From contig LDXJ01000055.1 in NCBI GenBank assembly GCA_001029295.1, positions 62,001-126,000 on the forward strand: DNA of 64,000 nucleotides, read 5' to 3'. A model generated the notes under the pieces. That model ran no database searches. It was given only the letters and a program-made list of their open reading frames with translations, and had not been told where the DNA came from. The first letter of the stretch is position 1. Every line of letters begins with the position of its first letter. A program made the position numbers and the translations under genes. Shown in pieces: positions 12,625 to 56,615 of the stretch. The stretch comes from Peptococcaceae bacterium CEB3. Lineage in GTDB: Bacteria > Bacillota > Desulfitobacteriia > Desulfitobacteriales > Desulfitobacteriaceae.

Positions 12625-13182
12625 ATGATTTCTTCAAATGATTTTAAGACGGGTGTGACGATCGAAGTAGACGGGGACGTTTATACAATTGTTGAGTTTC
12701 AACACGTGAAGCCGGGCAAAGGTGCGGCTTTCGTCCGGACAAAGCTCAAAAACGTAAAAACCGGCGGGGTGGTGGAACGCAAATTCAATGCCGGCGAAAA
12801 AGTTCCGAGGGCCCACGTGGAACGGAGGGAGATGCAGTACCTCTATAAAGACGGCGAACATTACGTGGTGATGGACAACGAAAACTATGAGCAAATGTCT
12901 CTCACGGCGGATCAAATAGGGGACCAGGTCAAATGGCTCAAGGAGAACATGAATTTAGGGGTGCTCTTTTTTGGCAGTGATGTGATCGGAGTCGACATTC
13001 CCAACAGCGTTCAGCTGGCGGTGGTGGCGACGGAACCGGGTGTCAAAGGGGACACGGCGACGGGCGGCACGAAGCCGGCCACAGTGGAGACCGGAGCCAT
13101 TGTGCAGGTACCTTTCTTCGTCAATGAGGGGGATGTGCTCATCATTGATACGCGTACCGGCAACTATGTGCAGCGGGCCTAG
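12625..13182 (+). CDS. efp: Elongation factor P
   Basis: EF-P (185 aa, the usual length) binds between the P and E sites of the ribosome and relieves stalling at proline runs. The N-terminal KOW-like domain holds the loop [15 protein letters not shown], whose Lys is the site of activity or modification in the family, followed by two OB domains ending in [15 protein letters not shown]. The ATG at 12625 is chosen because GAGG precedes it and it gives the standard [10 protein letters not shown] start. The ATG at 12616 sits too close to its GGGGG. Confidence 0.96.
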
Positions 13183-13304
13183 CTGCCGCAGGCGACGCGA
13201 GCAAACCCGCCTTTTCCCGACGGTCAAAACCATGGGGCTTGCGGCGGGTTACGGTTCTGTCAAAGGGATAGGGACGGGTGAAGCAGGGAAGGGTCTTTCA
13301 GGTC

Positions 13305-13335
13305 GAGCATCTCGCGGGAGCGAGGTGCTCTTTTT
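13305..13335 (+). terminator. Intrinsic terminator after efp
   Basis: GAGCATCTCGC and GCGAGGTGCTC form an 11-bp stem (one G-U) with a GGGA loop, followed by TTTTT. Confidence 0.8.
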
Positions 13336-13348
13336 GGTTCCGCGGGAT

Positions 13349-13420
13349 AAGAAAACTTGTGGCAGCCGCCGTGATTCGGCCGATCGCTCGCTTGAGCGAT
13401 CGCACCAGCCGAGTTTTCTT
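13349..13420 (+). other. Nested inverted repeat before spoIIIAA
   Basis: An outer 9-bp perfect inverted repeat (AAGAAAACT 13349-13357 / AGTTTTCTT 13412-13420) encloses an inner perfect hairpin (CGATCGCTC-GCTT-GAGCGATCG, 13381-13402). It could form a cruciform or an mRNA leader structure. Confidence 0.55.
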
Positions 13421-13471
13421 GATTCTAAAAAGGGCGGCGCGGACATACCTTCTATCAAGGAGGGACAGAAC

Positions 13472-14530
13472 GTGCCGCTTCACTATGTTAACTCTCGGAA
13501 ACCGGCCCGGTCCGTTTCTTCCTCGAACGGGGATGATGGAGCCGTGGAAGCGGGGTTTGGCTGGGACGAGTTCCTGGGCTGGTTTGGCGGGCGCCCGGGC
13601 CAGATTTTGGCCCGGACGGAGGTTGCCCCCGTTCAAGTGGAGGAAATTCGTTTGCGGGTTAACCAGCCGCTCTTGCTCCGCTTGACCGGCGAGGATCTTT
13701 TTTTGGACCGGACCGGACAGCCCGCCCCAGCCCAAGACGCTTATAGGGTAGAGCTGTCAGACCTGGCCGAAACCATGGACCGCTTGACCCAAAGCTCGCT
13801 CTATGCCGCCGCGGAAAATCTGCGTCAGGGCTTTCTCACCTTGCCGGGGGGGCACCGGGTGGGGATCACGGGAGAGGCCGTTATGAAGCAGGGGAGCTTA
13901 CAGACGATTAAACACATTACGGGGTTGAATTTCCGCCTAGCCCAGGACATCCGAGCGTTGGGGCTGGATATTCTGCCGCATCTCATCTCCTCGGAAAGAA
14001 GGCTTCATCACACGATCATCCTTTCCGCTCCCAGAGCGGGAAAAACGACCCTGCTCCGGGCCTTGATCCGGTGGTTGAGCAACGGGGTGCCGGAGTTGGG
14101 CCTTCCCGGACAGGCGGTGGGTGTTGTCGATGAGCGCGGGGAATTGGCCGGACTGTGGCAGGGAGTGCCGGCTTATGATTTAGGGAGACGTACGGATGTT
14201 CTAGGTTCCTGCCCGAAGGCGCTGGGCATGGGGATGCTGATCCGGTCCATGGGGCCGGAGGTGGTGGCTGTTGACGAAGTGGGACATGCCGAGGATGTTG
14301 CGGCCATAGCGGAGGCCTTGCGCAGCGGCGTCAGCATTCTCAGTACGGCTCACGCCGGCTCCCTGGAAGAAGCGCGCTGCCGTCCTATCTTAAGGGATTT
14401 GCTGGTGGGCGGGATTTTTGAGCGGGCGGTTCTACTCAGCAGGCGGCGGGGCCCCGGAACAGTGGAAAGCGTTTTGGATCTTGCCCGGGGGCAGGAAGTA
14501 AGGCCTTGGGGTCGGGTTGCCAACCGGTAG
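13472..14530 (+). CDS. spoIIIAA: Stage III sporulation protein AA, secretion ATPase
   Basis: SpoIIIAA (352 aa) is the ATPase of the mother cell to forespore channel, related to type II/IV secretion ATPases. A Walker A site APRAGKTT lies near residue 188, a Walker B-like VVAVDEVG further on, and the family segments EEIRLRVNQPL and GLNFRLAQDI are present. The frame is open far upstream, but GTG at 13472 has AAGGAGGG at good spacing and gives the family length. It is the first gene of the spoIIIA operon, usually transcribed by sigma-E; no convincing sigma-E promoter was found. Confidence 0.92.
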   Translation: MPLHYVNSRKPARSVSSSNGDDGAVEAGFGWDEFLGWFGGRPGQILARTEVAPVQVEEIRLRVNQPLLLRLTGEDLFLDRTGQPAPAQDAYRVELSDLAETMDRLTQSSLYAAAENLRQGFLTLPGGHRVGITGEAVMKQGSLQTIKHITGLNFRLAQDIRALGLDILPHLISSERRLHHTIILSAPRAGKTTLLRALIRWLSNGVPELGLPGQAVGVVDERGELAGLWQGVPAYDLGRRTDVLGSCPKALGMGMLIRSMGPEVVAVDEVGHAEDVAAIAEALRSGVSILSTAHAGSLEEARCRPILRDLLVGGIFERAVLLSRRRGPGTVESVLDLARGQEVRPWGRVANR

Positions 14531-14568
14531 ATGTGAAATTGAGCGATGACGATGAGGTGGAAAAAGAA

Positions 14569-15078
14569 ATGCTTATTCTGGGAGCGATGGGATTGATCGC
14601 CGCCTTCGGAGGAATTGGGCTCTGGCTTGCGGCTAGAGTCAGGCGCCGGCCCGAGGAAATCCGCGTTTTGCTGACCGCTTTGGCCTTGCTGGATACGGAC
14701 ATATACTGGGGTGCCACCCCTTTACCGGAAGCGTTTTCCGGTATTGCCAACAGGGTGGAGGGCCCGTGGCGGAGTTTTTTCGCCGAGGTTAAAGAACGGA
14801 TTGAAATGGGCGAGGCGGCTTGGCCCGCCTGGAAAGAAACGATCGCCCGGCAGACCGGCGCTTTTGCGCTCAAACCCGAAGACTGGCTGATCGTCCTCGA
14901 TATCGGCAAAGGGTTGGGACGTTCCGATCAACAGGAACAGCATAAACAACTGGAAATGGTCCAGAAACAATTGGCTTTATTGCGGGAACAGGTGGTCATT
15001 TGGGCTGAAAAACAAGCAAAAATGTGGGCCTATATGGGTTTTCTCGTAGGGTGTGCCAGTGCCATCTTTCTCATTTGA
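14569..15078 (+). CDS. spoIIIAB: Stage III sporulation protein AB
   Basis: SpoIIIAB (169 aa) is a membrane component of the SpoIIIA-SpoIIQ channel and resembles GspF-type secretion proteins. An N-terminal membrane helix (LILGAMGLIAAFGGIGLWL), a helical cytoplasmic region and a C-terminal helix (MGFLVGCASAIFLI) are seen. The KPEDWLIVLDIGKGLGRSDQ stretch is typical of the family. ATG at 14569 with GAGGTGG upstream is chosen over earlier in-frame codons that would overlap spoIIIAA. Confidence 0.9.
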   Translation: MLILGAMGLIAAFGGIGLWLAARVRRRPEEIRVLLTALALLDTDIYWGATPLPEAFSGIANRVEGPWRSFFAEVKERIEMGEAAWPAWKETIARQTGAFALKPEDWLIVLDIGKGLGRSDQQEQHKQLEMVQKQLALLREQVVIWAEKQAKMWAYMGFLVGCASAIFLI

Positions 15079-15175
15079 GAGCAGACTCCGGGGATAACAG
15101 CAGACCCTCGGGCGACTGGATCATTCTGGCCTCAGGCCTCCGGCCTCCGGCCTCTGGATTGGGAGGAGTATGAAG

Positions 15176-15373
15176 ATGGACTTAAGCATGATCTTTAGAA
15201 TAGCCGGAATCGGGATATTTGTCGGTTTCCTTGTGACCCTCCTTAATGAGGCGGGAAAGAAGGAAATTGCCCAATTTGTGACTGTGGCAGGGATTATTTT
15301 AGTCCTCTTCAGTATCCTTCAAGGAATGTCCCAGCTGTTTGCCTTGGTGAAAAGCGTGTTTCAATTGTACTAG
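15176..15373 (+). CDS. spoIIIAC: Stage III sporulation protein AC
   Basis: This 65-aa protein has two transmembrane helices. The sequence MDLSMIFRIAGIGIFVGFLV...GKKEIAQFVTVAGII matches SpoIIIAC, one of the small membrane subunits of the feeding-tube channel. An ATG at 15170 is too close to GGAGG, whereas 15176 has nine-base spacing. A run of ggcctcc repeats (15129-15157) lies just upstream. Confidence 0.92.
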   Translation: MDLSMIFRIAGIGIFVGFLVTLLNEAGKKEIAQFVTVAGIILVLFSILQGMSQLFALVKSVFQLY

Positions 15374-15392
15374 TGTACGGGGAGGACTGAAG

Positions 15393-15779
15393 GTGGAAAT
15401 CTGGCAAATTGTCGGGGTCGCCTTGCTTGTGACGATTATTGCCGTGGTACTGAGGAAAATTCAACCGGAGATTGCCGTCCAACTGAGCATATTGGCCGGC
15501 ATAGCCATCTTTCTCCTCGTTCTCGGAAAAATCAAGGTGATCGTCGACCTCTTGCAGAATTTGGCAGACCAGGCAAATATCAGCTCCTATTACCTGATCA
15601 TCGTCCTGAAAATCGTCGGAATCTCCTACCTGGCAGAATTCGGGGCTCAAATCTGCCGGGACGCGGGGGAGGGGGCCCTGGCCCTCAAAGTGGAACTCGC
15701 AGCTAAGATCGGAGTGCTCATTTTGGCGATACCCATTATCGTTGCCATCTTGGAATCTCTGGTGCGGCTGCTGCCGTGA
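15393..15779 (+). CDS. spoIIIAD: Stage III sporulation protein AD
   Basis: This 128-aa membrane protein has about four helices. It starts with GTG after GGGGAGGACTGAAG. The pattern IIAVVLRKIQPEIAVQLSI and YLAEFGAQICRDAGEGALA is characteristic of SpoIIIAD. It follows spoIIIAC by 19 bases and belongs to the same operon. Confidence 0.93.
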   Translation: MEIWQIVGVALLVTIIAVVLRKIQPEIAVQLSILAGIAIFLLVLGKIKVIVDLLQNLADQANISSYYLIIVLKIVGISYLAEFGAQICRDAGEGALALKVELAAKIGVLILAIPIIVAILESLVRLLP

Positions 15780-15790
15780 GGTGATGCTCT

Positions 15791-17140
15791 TTGAAAGTCA
15801 AACTGGGCGTAATCTTCTTCTTTTTTTTCCTGACGCTTGGGACAACTCCTCGTTCCTTGCTGGCCGCGGACAATGGACAGAATCCCGTCGCGCCCGGTTG
15901 GATTCAGAACTCAGGCGTCAATATTTCGGGTCAAAGCCCGGATCCGAGTGCCGGTCAAAACCAGGTTCAAACTCCGGCTTCAAGTGCGAGTCAAGGTCTG
16001 AGCCAAAGCGCGGATCCGAGTGCGGGCCAAAGTCTGAATCAGAGCACGGACCAAAACCCGAATCAAAGGACCGATTTGTCACAGCAGGTCGATTTAAGCA
16101 AAATGCAGGGCTTCTTGCAGAGTATCGACCAACAGGCTCAGACCTCTTTGCCCGGATTCTCCCTGACCGGACTGTTGGCAGGGCTTAAGCAAGGGAAACT
16201 GGATCTGAAGCCTCAGGACATCATGCGCAGCCTGTTGACATTTCTCACCGGAGAAATTCTGAAAACCGCTCCCTTAATCGGAAAATTCCTGGTCCTCGCC
16301 GTTTTGCTGGCGGTTCTGCAGCAGCTGCAGGAGGCCTTTGACGGCTCGGTAGGCAAATTGTCCCGCTTTTTATCCTACCTGGTTCTTTTGAGTTTGGCGA
16401 TGGCCGCTTTCCAAAGTGTGCTGGCAACCGCCCGAGGGGCCCTTGACCAAATGGTCGGGCTGATGCAGGCCCTCTTTCCGGCTATGCTGACTTTGCTCCT
16501 GGCTATGGGGAGCTTCGCCACAGCGGCGCTTTTCCGGCCAATGGTGATGGCCAGTCTGACTTTTCTGGCCACTTTATTCAAGAATGTCGTCCTGCCTTTG
16601 TTCTTTTTGGCAGCCGTCCTGCGCTTGTTTAACCAGATATCGGAACAGTTTAAACTGAATAAACTGGCGGGGCTGATTGAATTCGGCGGCAAAGTGAGTT
16701 TGGGGTTGGTCATGACCCTGTTTGTCGCCCTGATGACCCTTCAGGGTGTGACGGGAGGGGTAGCGGACGGTGTCACCCTGCGTACGGCCAAGTACTCCGT
16801 GGATCTCATTCCGGTGGTGGGTAAGTTCTTCAAGGACTCGGTAGAACTGGTTGTGACTTCGGGGCTGCTGCTCCGGAACGCCTTGGGCGTGGTGGCCTTC
16901 ATCGCCCTGTTAATCATCTGCCTGGGGCCTTTGGTAAAAATCCTGGCCATGATGTTTGTCTTTCGCCTTTCGGCTGCCCTGATCGAACCCTTGGGAGAGC
17001 AATCCCTAGCCAACGCTTTGCAGGATATGGCCAAGAGTCTGACCTACATCTTTGCGGCGCTGGCCTCAGTGGGCGTCATGTTTTTTATCGCAATCGTCGT
17101 GGTCGTGAGTTCGGGCAATCTGGCCTTGATGCTGCACTGA
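15791..17140 (+). CDS. spoIIIAE: Stage III sporulation protein AE
   Basis: SpoIIIAE (449 aa) is the large polytopic membrane subunit of the SpoIIIA channel. After a signal-type helix (residues 8-25) comes a low-complexity S/Q/N/D-rich region (about residues 38-98) with imperfect DPSAGQ-type repeats. A conserved amphipathic part (QDIMRSLLTFLTGEILKTAPLIGKF) and about seven helices follow. The start is TTG at 15791, with AGGTGAT upstream. The repeat region is not part of the conserved family core and looks like an expanded linker. Confidence 0.92.
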   Translation: MKVKLGVIFFFFFLTLGTTPRSLLAADNGQNPVAPGWIQNSGVNISGQSPDPSAGQNQVQTPASSASQGLSQSADPSAGQSLNQSTDQNPNQRTDLSQQVDLSKMQGFLQSIDQQAQTSLPGFSLTGLLAGLKQGKLDLKPQDIMRSLLTFLTGEILKTAPLIGKFLVLAVLLAVLQQLQEAFDGSVGKLSRFLSYLVLLSLAMAAFQSVLATARGALDQMVGLMQALFPAMLTLLLAMGSFATAALFRPMVMASLTFLATLFKNVVLPLFFLAAVLRLFNQISEQFKLNKLAGLIEFGGKVSLGLVMTLFVALMTLQGVTGGVADGVTLRTAKYSVDLIPVVGKFFKDSVELVVTSGLLLRNALGVVAFIALLIICLGPLVKILAMMFVFRLSAALIEPLGEQSLANALQDMAKSLTYIFAALASVGVMFFIAIVVVVSSGNLALMLH

Positions 17141-17169
17141 CCGCAGGCTCCGGGGAGGGAAAGATTGAA

Positions 17170-17769
17170 ATGCAGGCCCTGCAAAATCTCATAAGAAATC
17201 TGGCCATCATCCTTCTTCTCGCGACGTTTTTGGAGATGCTCCTGCCCAATAAATCCATGCGAGGGTATGTCCGGCTAGTCATGGGCCTGTTTGTCATTTC
17301 CGCCATACTCAACCCGCTGGCCGACCTTCTGCATGTGCCTTTGGCCCTGAACATACCGGCCTGGACGTCATCATCTCCCCAGGATTTGCCGGTCTTCGCG
17401 GCCGAAGGGCAGGGAAACAAACTTGGCCGAGATGCCGTACTGGCTCAATATCGCCAGATTCTCCAACACCAAATCGAGGCTTTGGCTCTCGGTGTCAAGG
17501 GGGTGGACAGAGCAAATGTGACGATTGATTTTGCCAATGACGGGGGCGGACTTATGGAGCAGCCACCCCTGACCAAAGTGAGCATCACGCTGTTTACCAC
17601 GACCACTGACATCCGGCCAATTCGTCCGATCGTCATTGATGGAAGCGGCCCGGCGCAACCTCACGCCCCGGCGCCGAATCCGCTGGCTCAAGAGGTCAAA
17701 GACAGGGTATCGGCTTTGATGGAAATAGACCCGGCAAAAGTAGATGTCCAAATGGCCGGAGAAAACTGA
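17170..17769 (+). CDS. spoIIIAF: Stage III sporulation protein AF
   Basis: This 199-aa protein has two N-terminal membrane helices (LAIILLLATFLEMLLPNKSMRGYVRLVMGLFVISAIL), matching the SpoIIIAF signature, and a soluble C-terminal domain. GGGAGGG lies upstream of the ATG. It sits between AE and AG in the operon. Confidence 0.9.
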   Translation: MQALQNLIRNLAIILLLATFLEMLLPNKSMRGYVRLVMGLFVISAILNPLADLLHVPLALNIPAWTSSSPQDLPVFAAEGQGNKLGRDAVLAQYRQILQHQIEALALGVKGVDRANVTIDFANDGGGLMEQPPLTKVSITLFTTTTDIRPIRPIVIDGSGPAQPHAPAPNPLAQEVKDRVSALMEIDPAKVDVQMAGEN

Positions 17770-17788: not shown

Positions 17789-18601
17789 ATGTTTGACAAA
17801 CCTGAGAGGCGCCTGACCCTGCAAGAATGGGGCCTGGGGAAAAAGGATGATTATGGCCGCAAGGACAGCGGAAAACAGGGGTTCAGGCGGACGGGGACGA
17901 ACCGTAAGAGAATGGACCGCGAGGGAGCAAAGGGGGAAAGCGGGAATCAAAAGAGAATGCGTCAAGAGGGAATGAATCGTGAGGGAATGAGCCGGGAGGG
18001 AAAGGCCAAGAAAGAGGGGAGCGGTTGGCTGGATTCCCTCTTACACAACGATAATCTTTTGAAACTTATGGTGGCCGGGATCGTGGTTTCCGTCGGGTTG
18101 ATCTTTTGGAGCAAAGGGGGCGGGCCGAACACGCCGGCTTTCAAACCTGTGGCTCAAACCCTGCCCGCCGCCAAGGACAACTCCGGAGGCAGCCAGAGCC
18201 AGATTAGCGCTCTGGAGCAGGCTTTGGAAAACAGAATGGCCGATAACTTGAGCCAAATCAACGGGGTCGGGCAAGTCAAAGTGATGGTGACCCTGGCAAC
18301 GGGACTGAAAAACGATTACGGCAAAAATGCCAGCGTGACAAAAAGCACGACGGAAGAGACGGATAAGACCGGGGGCACCCGCAAGTCCACGCAAACGACG
18401 GAAACGGACACTCTTGTGCTCCCCAACGGCTCAACCCAACCTGTGACGATTATGCAGGAGAGCCCGAATATTGAAGGCGTGCTGGTGGTGGCGGAAGGAG
18501 CCAAAGATCCCGGCATCCAGGAAGAAATACACAGTACGGTCTGTACGCTTCTGCATATCCCGGCCGCCAAAGTAGTCGTCGAAGCCATGGGCAGTTTCTG
18601 A
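17789..18601 (+). CDS. spoIIIAG: Stage III sporulation protein AG, ring-forming
   Basis: SpoIIIAG (270 aa) forms a large ring in the forespore-facing membrane. The N terminus (about 80 residues) is very basic and carries degenerate REGMNREGMSREG repeats. A membrane helix (LMVAGIVVSVGLIFW) follows, then the ring-building domain (VGQVKVMVTLATG...GVLVVAEGAKDPGIQEEI). ATG at 17789 follows GAGGAGGGG. The gene ends in a 19-bp tandem duplication, and the expected spoIIIAH does not follow. Confidence 0.92.
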   Translation: MFDKPERRLTLQEWGLGKKDDYGRKDSGKQGFRRTGTNRKRMDREGAKGESGNQKRMRQEGMNREGMSREGKAKKEGSGWLDSLLHNDNLLKLMVAGIVVSVGLIFWSKGGGPNTPAFKPVAQTLPAAKDNSGGSQSQISALEQALENRMADNLSQINGVGQVKVMVTLATGLKNDYGKNASVTKSTTEETDKTGGTRKSTQTTETDTLVLPNGSTQPVTIMQESPNIEGVLVVAEGAKDPGIQEEIHSTVCTLLHIPAAKVVVEAMGSF

Positions 18602-18656
18602 AACTGTGGGTAGTTTCCGAAGCTATGGGTAGTTTCTGAAGCTATGGACGGTTTCT
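18581..18656 (+). repeat. Four 19-bp tandem repeats across the spoIIIAG stop
   Basis: Units at 18581, 18600, 18619 and 18638 share the form GAAGCTATGGGTAGTTTCT with a few changes. The first unit encodes the last residues of SpoIIIAG and supplies the first bases of its stop region; the rest are noncoding. Confidence 0.85.
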
Positions 18657-18771
18657 GATCTTAAGATATTTGCGGGCGGCGGCAGGAAATCGTGACTGGA
18701 GCACGAATCAATCAAAGAGGTAAGCCCCCTACGACGGAATCGGGCCCGGTTGGAGGAGAGAGATATCCGAG

Positions 18772-19272: not shown

Positions 19273-19299
19273 ATAGGTGAAAATGTTCACCTATTTTTC
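19273..19299 (+). terminator. Leader hairpin with U-tract (attenuator or operator)
   Basis: ATAGGTGAA-AATG-TTCACCTAT is a perfect 9-bp stem followed by TTTTTCT. It lies about 11 bases after the likely transcription start and before the ribosome site of the carboxyltransferase gene, so it could be an early terminator/attenuator or a repressor palindrome. Confidence 0.6.
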
Positions 19300-19333
19300 T
19301 AATAGGAGAAAGGGTCTGAGAGGAGTTGCAGCG

Positions 19334-21223
19334 GTGAAAGCGGTAGGAATTACGGATACAACCTTGCGCGATGCGCACCAGAGCCTGTGGGCAACCAGGA
19401 TGCGCACGGAAGACATGCTTCCGGTTTTGGCCGATTTGGATGAAGCGGGCTTTCACTCGCTCGAAGTCTGGGGTGGGGCGACGTTCGATGTCTGCCTGCG
19501 TTTTTTGGGGGAGGATCCTTGGGAACGGTTGCGGCTGATCAAGCGTTATGTGCGTAAGACCCCGTTGCAGATGCTCCTGCGGGGTCAATCCTTAGTGGGG
19601 TACCAGCATTATCCCGACGATATTGTGCGGGAATTCGTCGCCCTCAGTGTCAAGAACGGGATAGACATTATTCGCATCTTTGACGCGCTCAATGATGTGC
19701 GCAATATGGAAGTACCTATCGAGGCGGCGAAAGAGGCCGGAGCCCACGTGCAAGCCGCGATTGCGTATACCGTGAGCCCGATGCACACGGTGTCCCATTA
19801 CCTTGAGACGGCGAGAGCCCTGGTGGCGCAGGGTGCGGATTCTTTGTGCATTAAAGACATGGCCGGACTTCTGACCCCTTACAAGGCCTACGAACTGGTG
19901 ACTTTGCTCAAACGGGAACTCGGAGTGATGGTTCAGCTGCACAGCCATTATATCGGGGGAATGGCAGTGGGAGCCTACTTAAAAGCCGCGGAGGCGGGAG
20001 TCGACGTGATCGACACGGCCAGCGTGCCCCTGGCCTTTGGGGCCAGCCAGCCTCCCGTGGAGACGGTGGTCAGAGCTTTGCAGGACTCCGAATACGCGAC
20101 AGGGTTGGATTTGCCCTATCTGTTCAAGATTGCGGACTACTTTGAGCAGTTGCGCAAAAAACGGGGCTTTGACCGGGGGCTCACCCGTATCAGCGATATG
20201 CGGGTCTTTGAGCACCAGGTCCCGGGCGGGATGATTTCCAATCTCATTTCGCAATTGGAGGAACAAAAGGCAGTGGAGCGCATCCACGAGGTTTTGACGG
20301 AAATTCCGCGGGTGCGGGCGGAGTTGGGCTATCCCCCCCTTGTCACTCCGACCAGCCAAATCGTGGGAACACAGGCTGTATTAAACGTTTTGAGCGGGGA
20401 AAGATATAAGTTAGTGCCCGGCGAGGTCAAAGCCTATGTGCGCGGACTTTACGGCCGTCCCCCGGCTCCGGTGGCCCGGGAAATTCAAAAGAAAATCATC
20501 GGGGACGAGAGCCCGATGACGGCCAGGCCGGCCGACAGCCTGGCGCCGGGACTGGAGAAAGCCAGGCGCGATCTGGGAGAGTTGGCCGGGTCGCCCGAAG
20601 ATGTTCTGAGCTACGCGCTCTTTCCGCAAGTGGCGCGCAAGTTCTTCGGAGAGCGCTCCCAAAGGGGCAAGGCGGGACTCGCTGAGACTCGGGTGCAAGG
20701 TGGTGCGGCCGCGAAGGAGGATGCAAAGTTGAATTTGGGCGAGATTAAAGAACTTATTCGTATACTGGACGAGACGGCGATTACGGAGTTGAACCTGGAA
20801 AGTGAAGGAGTCAGGATTTCCATTAAAAAAGGCGGTACAGGGGCGGCAACGGCGGCTTTTGCTCCGCTCGGCCCGGCGGCGCCTCAGGGATTGGGGTCGG
20901 CCGCAGAGACGGGCTCCGGGGGCGAACCGGTGCCGGTCCTGGCCTCGGCGGCGGGCAAGTACCAGGCGGAGGCCCGGTCGGAGAATTATACTTATGTTAA
21001 AGCACCTATGGTGGGCACCTTTTACCGGGCTCCGGCACCGGACGCACCCAGTTTTGTCGAGGTGGGTCAGCGAGTGCAAGCCGGGCAAACCGTGTGTATT
21101 ATTGAAGCCATGAAGTTGATGAACGAGATTGAGGCGGAGGTCGAGGGCAAAATCGCGCAAATCCTGGTGGAGAACGGTCAGCCTGTCGAATTCGGTCAAG
21201 AGTTGTTTGCAATTGAAGAGTAA
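19334..21223 (+). CDS. Pyruvate/oxaloacetate carboxyltransferase fused to AccB-type biotin carrier
   Basis: This 629-aa protein joins two enzyme parts. Residues 1-460 are a 5S-type carboxyltransferase (HMGL-like barrel plus PYC_OADA domain). It has [18 protein letters not shown], the Lys of [11 protein letters not shown], which is carbamylated in the family, and the metal ligands HSHYIGG. Residues from about 466 match a full Acc[23 protein letters not shown], a Pro/Ala linker and the biotin site EAMKLMNE (Lys594). With AccC directly downstream, the likely activity is ATP-dependent pyruvate carboxylation. The start is GTG at 19334, after GAGAGGAGTT. The AccB-type N-terminal helix inside the fusion is unusual, and an internal ribosome site precedes it. 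Confidence 0.88.
20729..21223 (+). CDS. accB: Possible nested acetyl-CoA carboxylase biotin carrier (internal start)
   Basis: Inside the fused gene AAGGAGG (20714-20720) lies eight bases before an in-frame TTG (20729). Translation from there gives a 164-aa protein starting [15 protein letters not shown], the normal beginning and length of AccB, with the biotinyl Lys in EAMKLMNE. It may be made separately from the same message as a free carrier for acetyl-CoA carboxylase. No accA or accD is in the window. Whether this start is used is inferred only from the ribosome site. Confidence 0.5.
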
Positions 21224-21235
21224 GGGGAGCGGGAT

Positions 21236-22582
21236 GTGTTCAAGAGAATTCTTATTGCCAACCGCGGCGAAATAGCCCTGAGAATCATCCGGGCCTGCCG
21301 CGAGCTGGACATAGAGACGGTGGCTGTTTTTTCCGAGGCTGACCGGGAGTCCCTGCATGTCAAAGCAGCCGATGAGGCGGTCTGTATTGGACCCGCCGCC
21401 ACAAGCAAGAGCTATCTCCACATTCCCAACATTATCAGCGCGGCCGAGTTAACCGGGGTCGATGCCATCCATCCCGGTTATGGGTTTTTGGCCGAGAATG
21501 CCCGCTTTGCCGAGATCTGCGAGTCTTGCGGGATCACCTTCATCGGACCGGCGGCCGAAGCGATCGAGAATATGGGAGACAAAGCCAAAGCTCGCCAAAC
21601 CATGATAGCCTCCGGGGTTCCGGTTGTGCCCGGCTCGCCCGGACCTGTGGATGATCTGGCCCAAGCGGAGGAGATCGCCGGGAAGATCGGCTACCCTGTG
21701 CTTATCAAGGCTTCAGCTGGGGGCGGCGGCAAGGGAATGCGCGTGGCCCAAAATGCCAGAGAACTGTCAAAGTCCGTCCAGGCCGCGCGGGCTGAAGCCC
21801 ACGCTTCTTTTGGTAATTCCGAGATTTACCTGGAAAAGTATGTCGAGGAACCGCGCCACATCGAATTTCAGATCCTGGCGGATAAATTCGGCGAAGTGGT
21901 CCATCTGGGGGAAAGAGATTGCTCTCTGCAGAGACGCAATCAAAAACTGCTGGAAGAGTCTCCTTCCAGTGCCATGACTCCCGAACTGCGCGCGCGCATG
22001 GGTCGCGTCGCGGTGGAAGCGGCCAGGGCCGCTAAGTATTCCAATGCCGGCACGATCGAGTTTTTGCTGGACAAACATAAGAACTTTTACTTTATTGAGA
22101 TGAATACCCGGATTCAAGTGGAACATCCGGTGACAGAGTTCGTCACCGGCATGGACCTTGTCAAAGAACAGATTCGCCTGGCTGCGGGAGAGCCGTTGGG
22201 GCTCTGTCAAGAAGACGTGCAGATGCGGGGTTGGGCAATGGAATGCCGTATCAATGCCGAAAATCCCGAGAAGAACTTTATGCCTTCGCCCGGGACGATT
22301 GAACTTTACCACGCTCCGGGGGGGCCGGGGGTCCGGGTCGACAGTGCGGCCTATCAGGGGTATCGAATTCCCCCGCATTACGATTCCATGATCGGGAAAC
22401 TGATTGTTTGGGGCTCCGACCGGGACGAGGCTGTACAGCGGATGAAAAGGGCGCTGGAAGAGTTTGTGATCGAAGGGGTAGCGACAACGATTCCTTTTCA
22501 TCTCAAAGTCTTGGATAATGCTTTCTTTCGCCGCGGGGAAGTCTATACCAATTTTATCCAGCGCCGGATTCTCGGTGAGTGA
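21236..22582 (+). CDS. accC: Biotin carboxylase
   Basis: AccC (448 aa) carboxylates the biotin of its carrier with ATP and bicarbonate. Seen are the N-terminal [20 protein letters not shown], the glycine-rich ATP-grasp loop GGGGKGMR, the metal/catalytic segment [14 protein letters not shown] and the C-terminal AccC domain ([16 protein letters not shown]). GTG at 21236 follows AAGGGGAGCGG. It lies 12 bases after the carboxyltransferase-BCCP gene, and the two products form the carboxylase. Its stop overlaps the second copy of the 30-bp repeat. Confidence 0.95.
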
Positions 22583-42875: not shown

Positions 42876-44138
42876 ATGGAGGGTGATGGAGAGGTGAAAA
42901 CCAGAAGATTCATCGTTATTTTGAGCCTCCTTCTCTGTACCTTCCTAAGCTTCAACCCGAGCATTCAGCAGTTGGCCCAGTTTCCGGATTTCCAGACTCA
43001 AACAAAACTTGCGGCACCTGCGCTATCGGGGTTTTGGAGCCATGTGATTCAGTTTAACGAAGTGCCGGCGGTCAAGGCCCTGGCGGGTCCCACGACTCAA
43101 ACCGTTCAGCTCACCTATAAGCTTTTCGGGATCTTTCCTTTAAAGTCAAGCGAAGTTGAAGTCATGCCGGAGATGAGTCTCCTGCCCGGCGGAGAATCCA
43201 TCGGTGTCACTCTCCAATCCAAAGGGGTTATGGTTGTCGGGCAGGCGCCTGTGGTCGGTCCGGATGGGAAAAAGCATTTTCCAGCCAGAGACGCGGGGAT
43301 TGAAACCGGGGATGTCTTATTGAAGATTAATCAGGAGGAGGTGCAATCCGATCAGGAGGTGGCCAGCCTGGTGAATGACGCCGGCAGAAATCACCAAGGC
43401 CTGCAGATTACGTTCAGGCACCAGGGGCAGGTACTGGTACGGACAGTGAATCCTGTTTACTGTCCCGACGATAAACGTTTTCGAATCGGTCTCTACGTCA
43501 GGGACGCGGCGGCCGGTGTCGGCACCTTGACGTATTATGACCCGACTACCAACAAATACGGCGCCTTGGGACACGTGATCAATGATGCTGATACAAACCA
43601 GAAAATTGATGTCTCCTCCGGTCAGGTGGTCGCTTCCGACATTCACTCCATCGAAAAGGGCCGCCGAGGGCATCCCGGCGAAAAAGTAGGTTCTTTCGAC
43701 CTTGGTTCTTCCTTTAGCGGGACCATTGAGAAAAACACGCGCACCGGGATATTCGGCACCCTCCAAGGCAAATTGAAGAACCCCTACTTCTCGAAGCCCA
43801 TTCCGGTCGGCTGGCAGACCGAAGTCAAAACCGGGCCGGCAAAAATCTACACGGTTTTGCACGGGGAGAAGATTGGGGAGTACAGTATAGACATTGAACG
43901 GGTTATGTTGAACCGGACCGACAGTAAAAACATGGTTATTCGGGTCACGGATCCCAGACTGTTGGCGGAAACCGGAGGAATCGTCCAGGGGATGAGCGGC
44001 AGCCCAATCGTTCAAAACGGCAAACTCATCGGGGCGGTCACGCATGTTTTTGTCAATGACAGTTCCCGCGGCTACGGGGTCTTCATCGAAAACATGCTGC
44101 GTGATTCGGGTTTCCTCCGGGAGGGAAAAGCGGCCTAA
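42876..44138 (+). CDS. spoIVB: SpoIVB serine peptidase
   Basis: SpoIVB (420 aa) is the S55 serine protease released by the forespore that triggers pro-sigma-K processing. It has an N-terminal membrane/signal helix, a PDZ domain (about 110-200, ARDAGIETGDVLLKINQEEV) and a peptidase domain with His in GALGHVI and Ser in GMSGSPIV (about residues 372-378). ATG at 42876 is used; GTG at 42894 is an alternative. It is expected under forespore sigma control; no clear promoter was found in the 150-base gap. Confidence 0.93.
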   Translation: MEGDGEVKTRRFIVILSLLLCTFLSFNPSIQQLAQFPDFQTQTKLAAPALSGFWSHVIQFNEVPAVKALAGPTTQTVQLTYKLFGIFPLKSSEVEVMPEMSLLPGGESIGVTLQSKGVMVVGQAPVVGPDGKKHFPARDAGIETGDVLLKINQEEVQSDQEVASLVNDAGRNHQGLQITFRHQGQVLVRTVNPVYCPDDKRFRIGLYVRDAAAGVGTLTYYDPTTNKYGALGHVINDADTNQKIDVSSGQVVASDIHSIEKGRRGHPGEKVGSFDLGSSFSGTIEKNTRTGIFGTLQGKLKNPYFSKPIPVGWQTEVKTGPAKIYTVLHGEKIGEYSIDIERVMLNRTDSKNMVIRVTDPRLLAETGGIVQGMSGSPIVQNGKLIGAVTHVFVNDSSRGYGVFIENMLRDSGFLREGKAA

Positions 44139-44293
44139 AGGACTCACCGAACGGCTTTGGTTAGGCCGACCAAACCGGGGGCTTATTGCTCTTTCCTTGC
44201 CGGGAAAGGGCAAACGAGCCTCCGGCTCTAAACTCCGGTTTTTTGATCATGATTGCAAATACACAGTCGGCGGAGAAGGAATAGGATAAAAGA

Positions 44294-44300
44294 TGTCGAA
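44294..44300 (+). promoter_or_regulatory. 0A box upstream of spo0A
   Basis: TGTCGAA is an exact Spo0A-binding consensus, 72 bases before the spo0A start, consistent with autoregulation. A small stem (CGCGGA/TCCGCG) lies between it and the gene. Confidence 0.55.
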
Positions 44301-44372
44301 CAATTTAAGAGGGCATAGCGTCGCGGAATTCTCCGCGAATCGCTGCAGTTGGAGGGAAGGCGAAAAGGGAAA

Positions 44373-45197
44373 ATGCACAAAGTTCGAGTGCTGCTTACAG
44401 ACGACAACCGCGATTTTATTGAGGTTTTAAAGGAATATATCAAACAGCAGCAAGACATGGATTTGGTCGGAGTCGCTTATCACGGTCAAGAAGCGGTTGA
44501 ATTGATTAATCGGGAAGAACCTGATGTGGTTGTTCTTGATATAATTATGCCCCACCTTGATGGGCTGGGGGTTTTGGAGAAAATACAGGACCGGGCCAAA
44601 AAACCTCGGATCATTATTCTGTCGGCCTTCGGTCAGGAGACAATGACGCAGAAGGCGGTAAACCTTGGTGCCGATTACTACATTTTAAAACCCTTTGATT
44701 TGGAAACATTGGGCCGCCGCATCCGGCAGCTGGCAGGCAACGATCCTGTCCCTGTCGGCCCGGGCCTGCAAGCTGCGAACATGGTGCTTGCGAACGGTGT
44801 TTTCGCCGCGGGATTGTCCCCCAAGAGTGCCGCCGGGGAGGCTAAACACCTGGAGGTCGAAGTAACCCGTATGATTCATCAGATGGGGGTTCCGGCCCAT
44901 GTCAAAGGATATCAGTATCTGAGGGACGCTATCGTCGATGTCGTACAGGAGATTTCTCTCTTGGGCGCGGTGACCAAGGAATTGTACCCTATGATTGCCG
45001 AGAAATACGAAACCACACCGAGCCGGGTGGAACGCGCAATCCGCCACGCGATTGAACTCGCTTGGGACCGGGGCAACATCGAACTCATGAATAAATTTTT
45101 CGGTTATACGATTGATGTGGACCGCGGTAAGCCCACCAATTCCGAATTCATAGCTATGGTAGCGGACAAATTGCGCATGACGAACCTGATGCTCTGA
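44373..45197 (+). CDS. spo0A: Sporulation master regulator Spo0A
   Basis: Spo0A (274 aa) is the response regulator that starts sporulation. The receiver domain has D10/D11, phospho-acceptor D56 ([13 protein letters not shown]) and the Lys of ILKPF. The C-terminal DNA-binding domain has [35 protein letters not shown] at 44373 follows AAAAGGG. It is monocistronic, ending in a terminator, with a 0A box upstream. Confidence 0.97.
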
Positions 45198-55706: not shown

Positions 55707-56306
55707 ATGCGGCACAGGTTGGAGGAGCATGTTCGCCGGTATTGGTTAATTTACTTAACCCTTGCCAGTGTCTATCTGGCGGGAATCGTCTTAGGAGCGG
55801 TCGGAGTCGGTGCTTTGGGCGGGCAGGAGACCTCCCGGCTCGGGCAATTTCTGGACACGTTGCTGCTCAGCCAGCCTTCGGCCTTGAGTCCTCAGTTTTT
55901 GCTGGCGCTGGCCCGGGATACCTTGATTATAATGGCTGGGATCTGGCTTTTGGGCTTGACGGTCGTCGGGGTTCCCTTAATCTATGTGGTCGTCTTCACC
56001 CGGGGGTTCATTCTCGGGTTTACCGCCAGCTTTATCATTGAGGTCAAGGGGGCGGCCGGGGTTGCGCTGGCAGTCGTTACGATCTTTCTGCCGGCTTTGG
56101 CCGCCATACCGCTGCTGTTGCTCGACGCCGGCATGGCCACGATCTTTTCCTTGCTCTTGTTGCGCGGCCGCGGCAAAGGGGAGTCTCTGAGACGCGATGT
56201 TTTCTATTACAGCCTATCGGCTGCCCTAGTTTCCTTGGGAGCCGTACTGGTGGGCATCGCCCAGGGGTATTTTTCCCTCTTGGGGGTGCACCTGTTCGGC
56301 CTGTGA
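55707..56306 (+). CDS. spoIIM: Stage II sporulation protein M
   Basis: SpoIIM (199 aa) is a five-helix membrane protein of the SpoIID-SpoIIM-SpoIIP engulfment machine. RYWLIYLTLASVYLAGIVLGAVGVGAL, VVVFTRGFILGFTASFI and the last helix before the C terminus fit the family. ATG at 55707 follows AAAGGGG. It is normally a mother-cell gene; the position between nudF and xerD is as in Bacillus. Confidence 0.93.
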   Translation: MRHRLEEHVRRYWLIYLTLASVYLAGIVLGAVGVGALGGQETSRLGQFLDTLLLSQPSALSPQFLLALARDTLIIMAGIWLLGLTVVGVPLIYVVVFTRGFILGFTASFIIEVKGAAGVALAVVTIFLPALAAIPLLLLDAGMATIFSLLLLRGRGKGESLRRDVFYYSLSAALVSLGAVLVGIAQGYFSLLGVHLFGL

Positions 56307-56408: not shown

Positions 56409-56585
56409 GGACATCACCGGGAAAGTGTGAGAAGGCAGACGCGGCCGGGAAGATGTCGCCGGAGATGTCTCCGGGGATATCATCGGAAGATGTCGTCAGG
56501 AACACGTCACCGGGAAGATGTCGCTAGGAAAATGTCGCCAGGCGGACGTCATCGGGAAGATGTCGCTAGGGTGGCGTCGCCGGGA
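56409..56585 (+). repeat. 14-bp tandem repeat array (about 13 units) upstream of ald
   Basis: The degenerate unit is AGATGTCGCCGGGA. Units start at 56409, 56423, 56437, 56451 (12 bases), 56463, 56477 (11), 56488, 56502, 56516, 56530, 56544, 56558 and 56572. A period of 14 is not a multiple of 3 and no ribosome site opens a gene here, so the array is noncoding. It fills almost all of the gap between spoIIM and ald. Confidence 0.85.
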
Positions 56586-56615
56586 AGACGGCATAAGAAA
56601 TTGGAGGTTTAGCTA

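Follow-up and report, generated by a model that had tools for sequence, protein, structure and literature searches.

According to textbooks, mother cell and forespore are linked by the interaction of SpoIIQ with SpoIIIAH, and the locus studied here raises the question of whether a lineage can keep the remaining SpoIIIA proteins without it. We analyzed a stretch of 64,000 nucleotides, hereafter the window (positions 62001-126000 of contig LDXJ01000055.1), from the genome of Peptococcaceae bacterium CEB3 (G000; 5.31 Mb, 64 contigs, 98.5% complete), in which the original prediction had placed 170 noncoding bases and a receiver gene, instead of spoIIIAH, after spoIIIAG. In a 2012 survey, all eight SpoIIIA proteins were listed in every spore-former (PMC3533761). 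A later survey found SpoIIIAH to be missing in Thermaerobacter, SpoIIP to be undetected in Alicyclobacillus acidocaldarius, and both SpoIID and SpoIIQ to be missing from Sulfobacillus (PMC7924749). Several of the taxa reported without SpoIIIAH, SpoIIP or SpoIID/SpoIIQ are acidophiles.

The ORFs and the profile searches bore out the predicted arrangement (Table 1). Instead of the eight genes spoIIIAA-AH in order, the operon consists of spoIIIAA-AG, and spoIIIAH is absent genome-wide. Homologues of spoIIIAA-AF were found in the same order in 20 of 20 relative loci, some of which are truncated at contig ends, and SpoIIIAF matched TIGR02896 (spore_III_AF). Compared with the genus-mate Acididesulfobacillus acetoxydans, dN/dS was 0.02-0.17 for AA, AB, AD, AE and AF and 0.24 for spoIIIAG. 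SpoIIIAG has both the TM segment and the ring-building domain; residues 89-266 matched TIGR02830 with E 4.8e-38, which is under the curated cut-off, and an alignment with 7 relatives showed that the ring-building domain has been kept and an N-terminal extension gained. This low-complexity extension (window 17789-18025) contains REGMNREGMSREGK-type repeats and exceeds its sister-genus counterpart by ~50 residues. SpoIIIAE likewise carries a Q/N/S-rich stretch after a signal-like N-terminus (window 15791-15990), coded in part by a 36-bp tandem repeat (15930-16031), and its core begins at about residue 67, compared with about residue 17 in the sister genus.

Table 1. Positions of the features discussed in the text. 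Coordinates refer to the window except in the last row, which refers to contig C63 of the same genome.
Feature	Position	Strand	Evidence or remark
spoIIIAA, AB, AC, AD, AE, AF	13040..17769	+	Intact rest of the operon (ORFs); start position of AA uncertain
spoIIIAG, 270 aa	17789..18601 (stop at 18601)	+	Normal ring-building ectodomain; genus-specific low-complexity N-terminal extension
Tandem array of the last spoIIIAG codons, 19 bp x 4.1 copies	18581..18658	+	TRF
spoIIIAH site, gene missing	18602..18771	none	Last ~110 bases resemble the sister-genus AH-receiver spacer
CheY-like receiver-only protein, 121 aa	18772..19137	+	PF00072, E 3.9e-28
pycB-like carboxyltransferase/biotin carrier and accC	19277..22582	+	Usual genes downstream of spoIIIA; synteny in relatives
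spoIVB and spo0A, intact	42876..45197	+	TIGR02860, E 2.4e-140; TIGR02875, E 9.8e-120
spoIIM (matched part)	55770..56249	+	PF01944, E 2.8e-12; TIGR02831, E 8.5e-21, under the curated cut-off
Short ORF at the spoIIQ locus	G000 C63:118470-118730		86 aa from the first ATG; 125 aa in A. acetoxydans (G001)

The 170 noncoding bases that separate spoIIIAG from the receiver gene contain no ORF of at least 60 aa on the + strand. The AH gene of relatives starts at, or just past, the AG stop codon, and the receiver gene is conserved between AH and pycB in G007, G009, G011, G017 and G020. Because relatives have the order AG-AH-receiver-pycB or AG-AH-pycB, synteny indicates that the receiver gene is an old neighbour and not an insertion.

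SpoIIIAH was sought with two profiles. Pfam PF12685 gave no match at E<=10 in the host genome and none in the complete chromosome of A. acetoxydans INE (G001), a single contig of 4,520,225 bp. A local profile, built from 16 SpoIIIAH proteins that all come from the same order as the host, gave no match at E<=1 in either genome. Of the 73 genomes searched, 52 gave a SpoIIIAH match to this profile with an E-value no higher than 1e-44; therefore, poor sensitivity is not why the protein was missed, and since the A. acetoxydans chromosome is one contig, an assembly gap is not the cause of its absence. Relocation was rejected, as neither profile found a match in either genome. Thus, where the original prediction had held that SpoIIIAH was either moved or lost, the former drew a blank genome-wide, the complete A. 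acetoxydans chromosome included, and the latter gained support from a loss common to both Acididesulfobacillus species examined. Given that SpoIIIAH sits exactly at this place in relatives, and that the left-over spacer resembles the spacer between AH and the receiver gene in the sister genus, the comparison indicates that spoIIIAH is deleted, not relocated, and a deletion spanning spoIIIAH alone would be the simplest reading.

The resemblance of the spacers was assessed by shuffling. The host spacer aligned to the AH-receiver spacer of the sister-genus genome G011 with a score of 59.5 (shuffled mean, 33.9; reached in 2 of 300 shuffles), and the A. acetoxydans spacer gave a weaker result (21 of 300 shuffles). 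Between the host and A. acetoxydans, alignment showed the spacer 3' of the tandem array to be conserved. An AH remnant inside the 170 bases was rejected, the recognisable part being the downstream spacer only.

The tandem array had been taken as a hint of a past rearrangement, a suggestion that stands at most in part. According to TRF, the array starts inside the final spoIIIAG codons, and A. acetoxydans has at the same place an array of the spoIIIAG end with 7 copies of 36 bp. The last repeat copy is common to both species in the alignment, so that at least one duplication is old. However, the arrays differ between the two species in unit length and copy number, so most of their growth came after the loss of AH. 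A coding role for the array was rejected because the 66-aa frame of A. acetoxydans is not conserved in the host. Elsewhere, in G039 (genus g14; L049 8932-9876 and 9929-10189), spoIIIAG is followed first by an Rpn-like transposase gene and then by a second copy of its own end.

The partner of SpoIIIAH was examined at its own locus. Desulfosporosinus-like bacteria and several related genera encode a LytM protein of 180-240 aa beside spoIID and spoIIID. In the family, 33 genomes matched a SpoIIQ profile made from five such proteins with E-values of 3e-59 or lower; the best match of this profile in CEB3 and A. acetoxydans was only ~1e-12. Over the Pfam cut-off, these two genomes have two M23 proteins each, and G003, of the sister genus, has six. 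The two CEB3 proteins, and the single A. acetoxydans protein included in the comparison, are each the orthologue of a G003 M23 protein other than SpoIIQ; on this basis, a relocated SpoIIQ was rejected. Three further M23 genes of G003, besides SpoIIQ, have no counterpart in CEB3 or A. acetoxydans at the Pfam cut-off, and perhaps cell-wall hydrolysis has changed overall in this lineage.

Instead of the LytM gene, the spoIID-spoIIID interval of both species contains a short ORF that has a single membrane span but lacks the LytM/M23 domain of SpoIIQ; the 86-aa ORF of CEB3 gave no Pfam M23 match. The ORF is preceded by GATTA-N15-GGGAAC(A/T)CTA and by GAGGTG at spoIIQ spacing, an arrangement that matches the sigma-F-like promoters ahead of spoIIQ in relatives (GTCTA-N15-GGcAAnnnTA). 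The ORF therefore has the place (spoIID-spoIIID) and the sigma-F-like promoter of a clostridial SpoIIQ, with a promoter match that is weaker than those of relatives and a score reached by 1-2% of shuffles. The two species share 97% identity in the N-terminal and membrane part of the ORF and 72% in its tail; the differences are concentrated at third codon positions (p 0.002), with a dN/dS of 0.22. Protein similarity to SpoIIQ was not demonstrable. Our reading, from its place, the promoter-like sequence and the start site, is that the ORF represents a SpoIIQ remnant or substitute kept by selection. The proposal that another ring protein partners SpoIIQ in these bacteria fails as stated, since the partner-binding LytM domain of SpoIIQ is also gone and the short membrane ORF is what is left; the HMM searches in the genome and in relatives found SpoIIIAH and a LytM SpoIIQ to be absent from both Acididesulfobacillus species. 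In several genera with SpoIIIAH (g5 and the members of family f3 that were sampled; L111, L112, L113, L117 and L118), the spoIID-spoIIID interval likewise holds no LytM gene, and SpoIIIAH may pair with a different protein there.

A third engulfment protein, SpoIIP (PF07454), was sought in 19 genomes; CEB3 and A. acetoxydans lack it, and the other 17 have it. The spoIIP gene of relatives is flanked by a holin-like gene and murJ. In the two Acididesulfobacillus genomes, the holin-like gene adjoins murJ and the site is closed, with no SpoIIP-like sequence between the two genes. The engulfment proteins SpoIID and SpoIIM are present; the interval from spoIIM to the alanine dehydrogenase gene contains a 14- and 42-bp tandem repeat (window 56444-56588).

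In a tree of six SpoIIIA proteins, Acididesulfobacillus (g1) grouped with its sister genus (g3) with a UFBoot value of 100. SpoIIQ and SpoIIP were found in both G003 and G011 of the sister genus and SpoIIIAH in G011; G003 was set aside as an AH-less sister, since its AH junction is a run of N and G011 of the same genus has the gene. Because the sister genus keeps all three genes, the phylogeny indicates that the losses of SpoIIIAH, the LytM domain of SpoIIQ and SpoIIP all date to the Acididesulfobacillus branch and precede the split of the two species. SpoIIIAH is also missing in genera g2, g14 and g17, which are represented by fragmented assemblies only, and SpoIIP is kept in the seven genomes of these genera tested. 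That the loss of SpoIIIAH follows the loss of SpoIIQ is suggestive only: the AH-less genera all have no recognisable SpoIIQ, and the same is true of several AH-bearing genera. Acidity as the sole cause was rejected. The Desulfosporosinus-like genus (g6) includes acidophilic species (PMC8982180), and every g6 genome has a SpoIIIAH match; therefore, acidity alone is insufficient.

Taken together, these results make it probable that Acididesulfobacillus is a spore-former lineage that runs SpoIIIAA-AG without the SpoIIQ-SpoIIIAH zipper and without SpoIIP, having lost spoIIIAH, the SpoIIQ LytM domain and spoIIP on its own branch. The alternative that the genus is losing sporulation, with SpoIIIAH, SpoIIQ and SpoIIP as the first to go and others to follow, would account for three missing engulfment genes and would suit the absence of SpoIIIAH from the fragmented g2, g14 and g17 assemblies, as well as from g16, in which SpoIIIAG was not found in the two genomes searched and SpoIIID was not found in the one searched. 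However, of the endospore programme, spo0A, sigF, sigE, sigG, spoIIGA, spoIID, spoIIM, spoIIID and spoIVB are present, and the sporulation genes compared between the two species are all full length, with dN/dS of 0.01-0.24 pointing to purifying selection on these intact genes in both species. Moreover, the A. acetoxydans type strain was described with subterminal oval endospores by phase-contrast microscopy (PMC8982180), and we consider ongoing loss of sporulation unlikely. We found in the literature neither heat-resistance data for A. acetoxydans spores nor a record of sporulation in CEB3 itself.

It is also rather improbable that a strongly diverged analogue of SpoIIIAH, SpoIIQ or both is encoded elsewhere, so that the zipper persists in another form. 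In favour of such an analogue, SpoIIQ is known to have undergone non-orthologous displacement in clostridia (PMC3533761), and the ring-building domains of SpoIIIAF and SpoIIIAG are related to that of SpoIIIAH (PMC7924749); against this, no SpoIIIAH match appeared at E<=10 with Pfam in CEB3 or at E<=1 with the local profile in both species, and the only two M23 proteins per genome have, where compared, orthologues in the SpoIIQ-bearing sister genus. That spoIIIAH simply moved, or that the assembly is at fault, as the 64 contigs and 98.5% completeness of the host genome might suggest, is hardly credible, given that the junction lies inside a contig and that the complete A. acetoxydans chromosome has the same gene order and no SpoIIIAH genome-wide.

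On the Acididesulfobacillus branch, the spoIIIA operon thus probably lost its last gene, spoIIIAH, by deletion; the LytM ectodomain of SpoIIQ was lost as well, leaving a short single-span protein behind the retained sigma-F-like promoter, and spoIIP was deleted. The SpoIIIAA-AG transporter ring would then be assembled without the zipper, and trans-septal contact would be made another way; candidates for this role are SpoIIIAG and the short putative forespore protein encoded at the spoIIQ locus. SpoIID and SpoIIM might work with another amidase or endopeptidase that replaces SpoIIP. Tentatively, and with more doubt than conviction, we suggest that engulfment and sigma-G activation could proceed by a rebuilt route in which SpoIIIAA-AG is anchored by a minimal SpoIIQ (a span and a short tail, no LytM), SpoIIIAH plays no part, and septal peptidoglycan is removed without SpoIIP.

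Work in B. subtilis provides a measure for this proposal. Deletion of SpoIIIAH leaves 5% sporulation, far milder than the effect of other spoIIIA deletions, and direct SpoIIQ-SpoIIIAH contact is dispensable, while deletion of spoIIQ decreases heat-resistant spores about a million-fold (PMC12720343). This difference between a mild and a severe deletion fits a lineage in which SpoIIIAH could easily be lost and the spoIIQ locus still encodes a minimal membrane protein of the forespore, and the severity of the spoIIQ deletion makes a SpoIIQ-less spore-former a demanding reading. The B. subtilis SpoIIQ mutants that are unable to bind SpoIIIAH likewise sporulate without direct contact, although they still make both proteins (PMC12720343), whereas Acididesulfobacillus is without the binding domains themselves.

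Compared with the spoIIIA operon and SpoIIIA-SpoIIQ complex of B. subtilis and C. difficile, Acididesulfobacillus has the same spoIIIAA-AG order with efp and pycB/accC as neighbours and the same spoIID-x-spoIIID locus with a sigma-F-like promoter before x, but it has no SpoIIIAH, no LytM domain in x and no SpoIIP. In Thermaerobacter marianensis, spoIIIA is likewise reported complete except for SpoIIIAH; unlike Acididesulfobacillus, which has SpoIID and no SpoIIP, Thermaerobacter is without SpoIID and GerM, and within its group SpoIIQ was reported missing only from Sulfobacillus (PMC7924749). Alicyclobacillus acidocaldarius is likewise an acidophilic spore-former reported to be without SpoIIP (PMC3533761, PMC7924749), for which a lack of SpoIIIAH or SpoIIQ is not reported. 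In the literature searched, we found no description of a joint loss of SpoIIIAH, the SpoIIQ LytM domain and SpoIIP.

The importance of the SpoIIQ-SpoIIIAH link itself is under question in B. subtilis (PMC12720343), and the Acididesulfobacillus lineage can show which parts of the junction between mother cell and forespore are really needed. Here, both interacting domains and SpoIIP have been dropped with SpoIIIAA-AG remaining under selection, which would separate the transporter role from the zipper role, and A. acetoxydans is a cultured organism in which the two roles can be tested. If true, the minimal-SpoIIQ route would represent a naturally occurring minimal form of the channel between mother cell and forespore.
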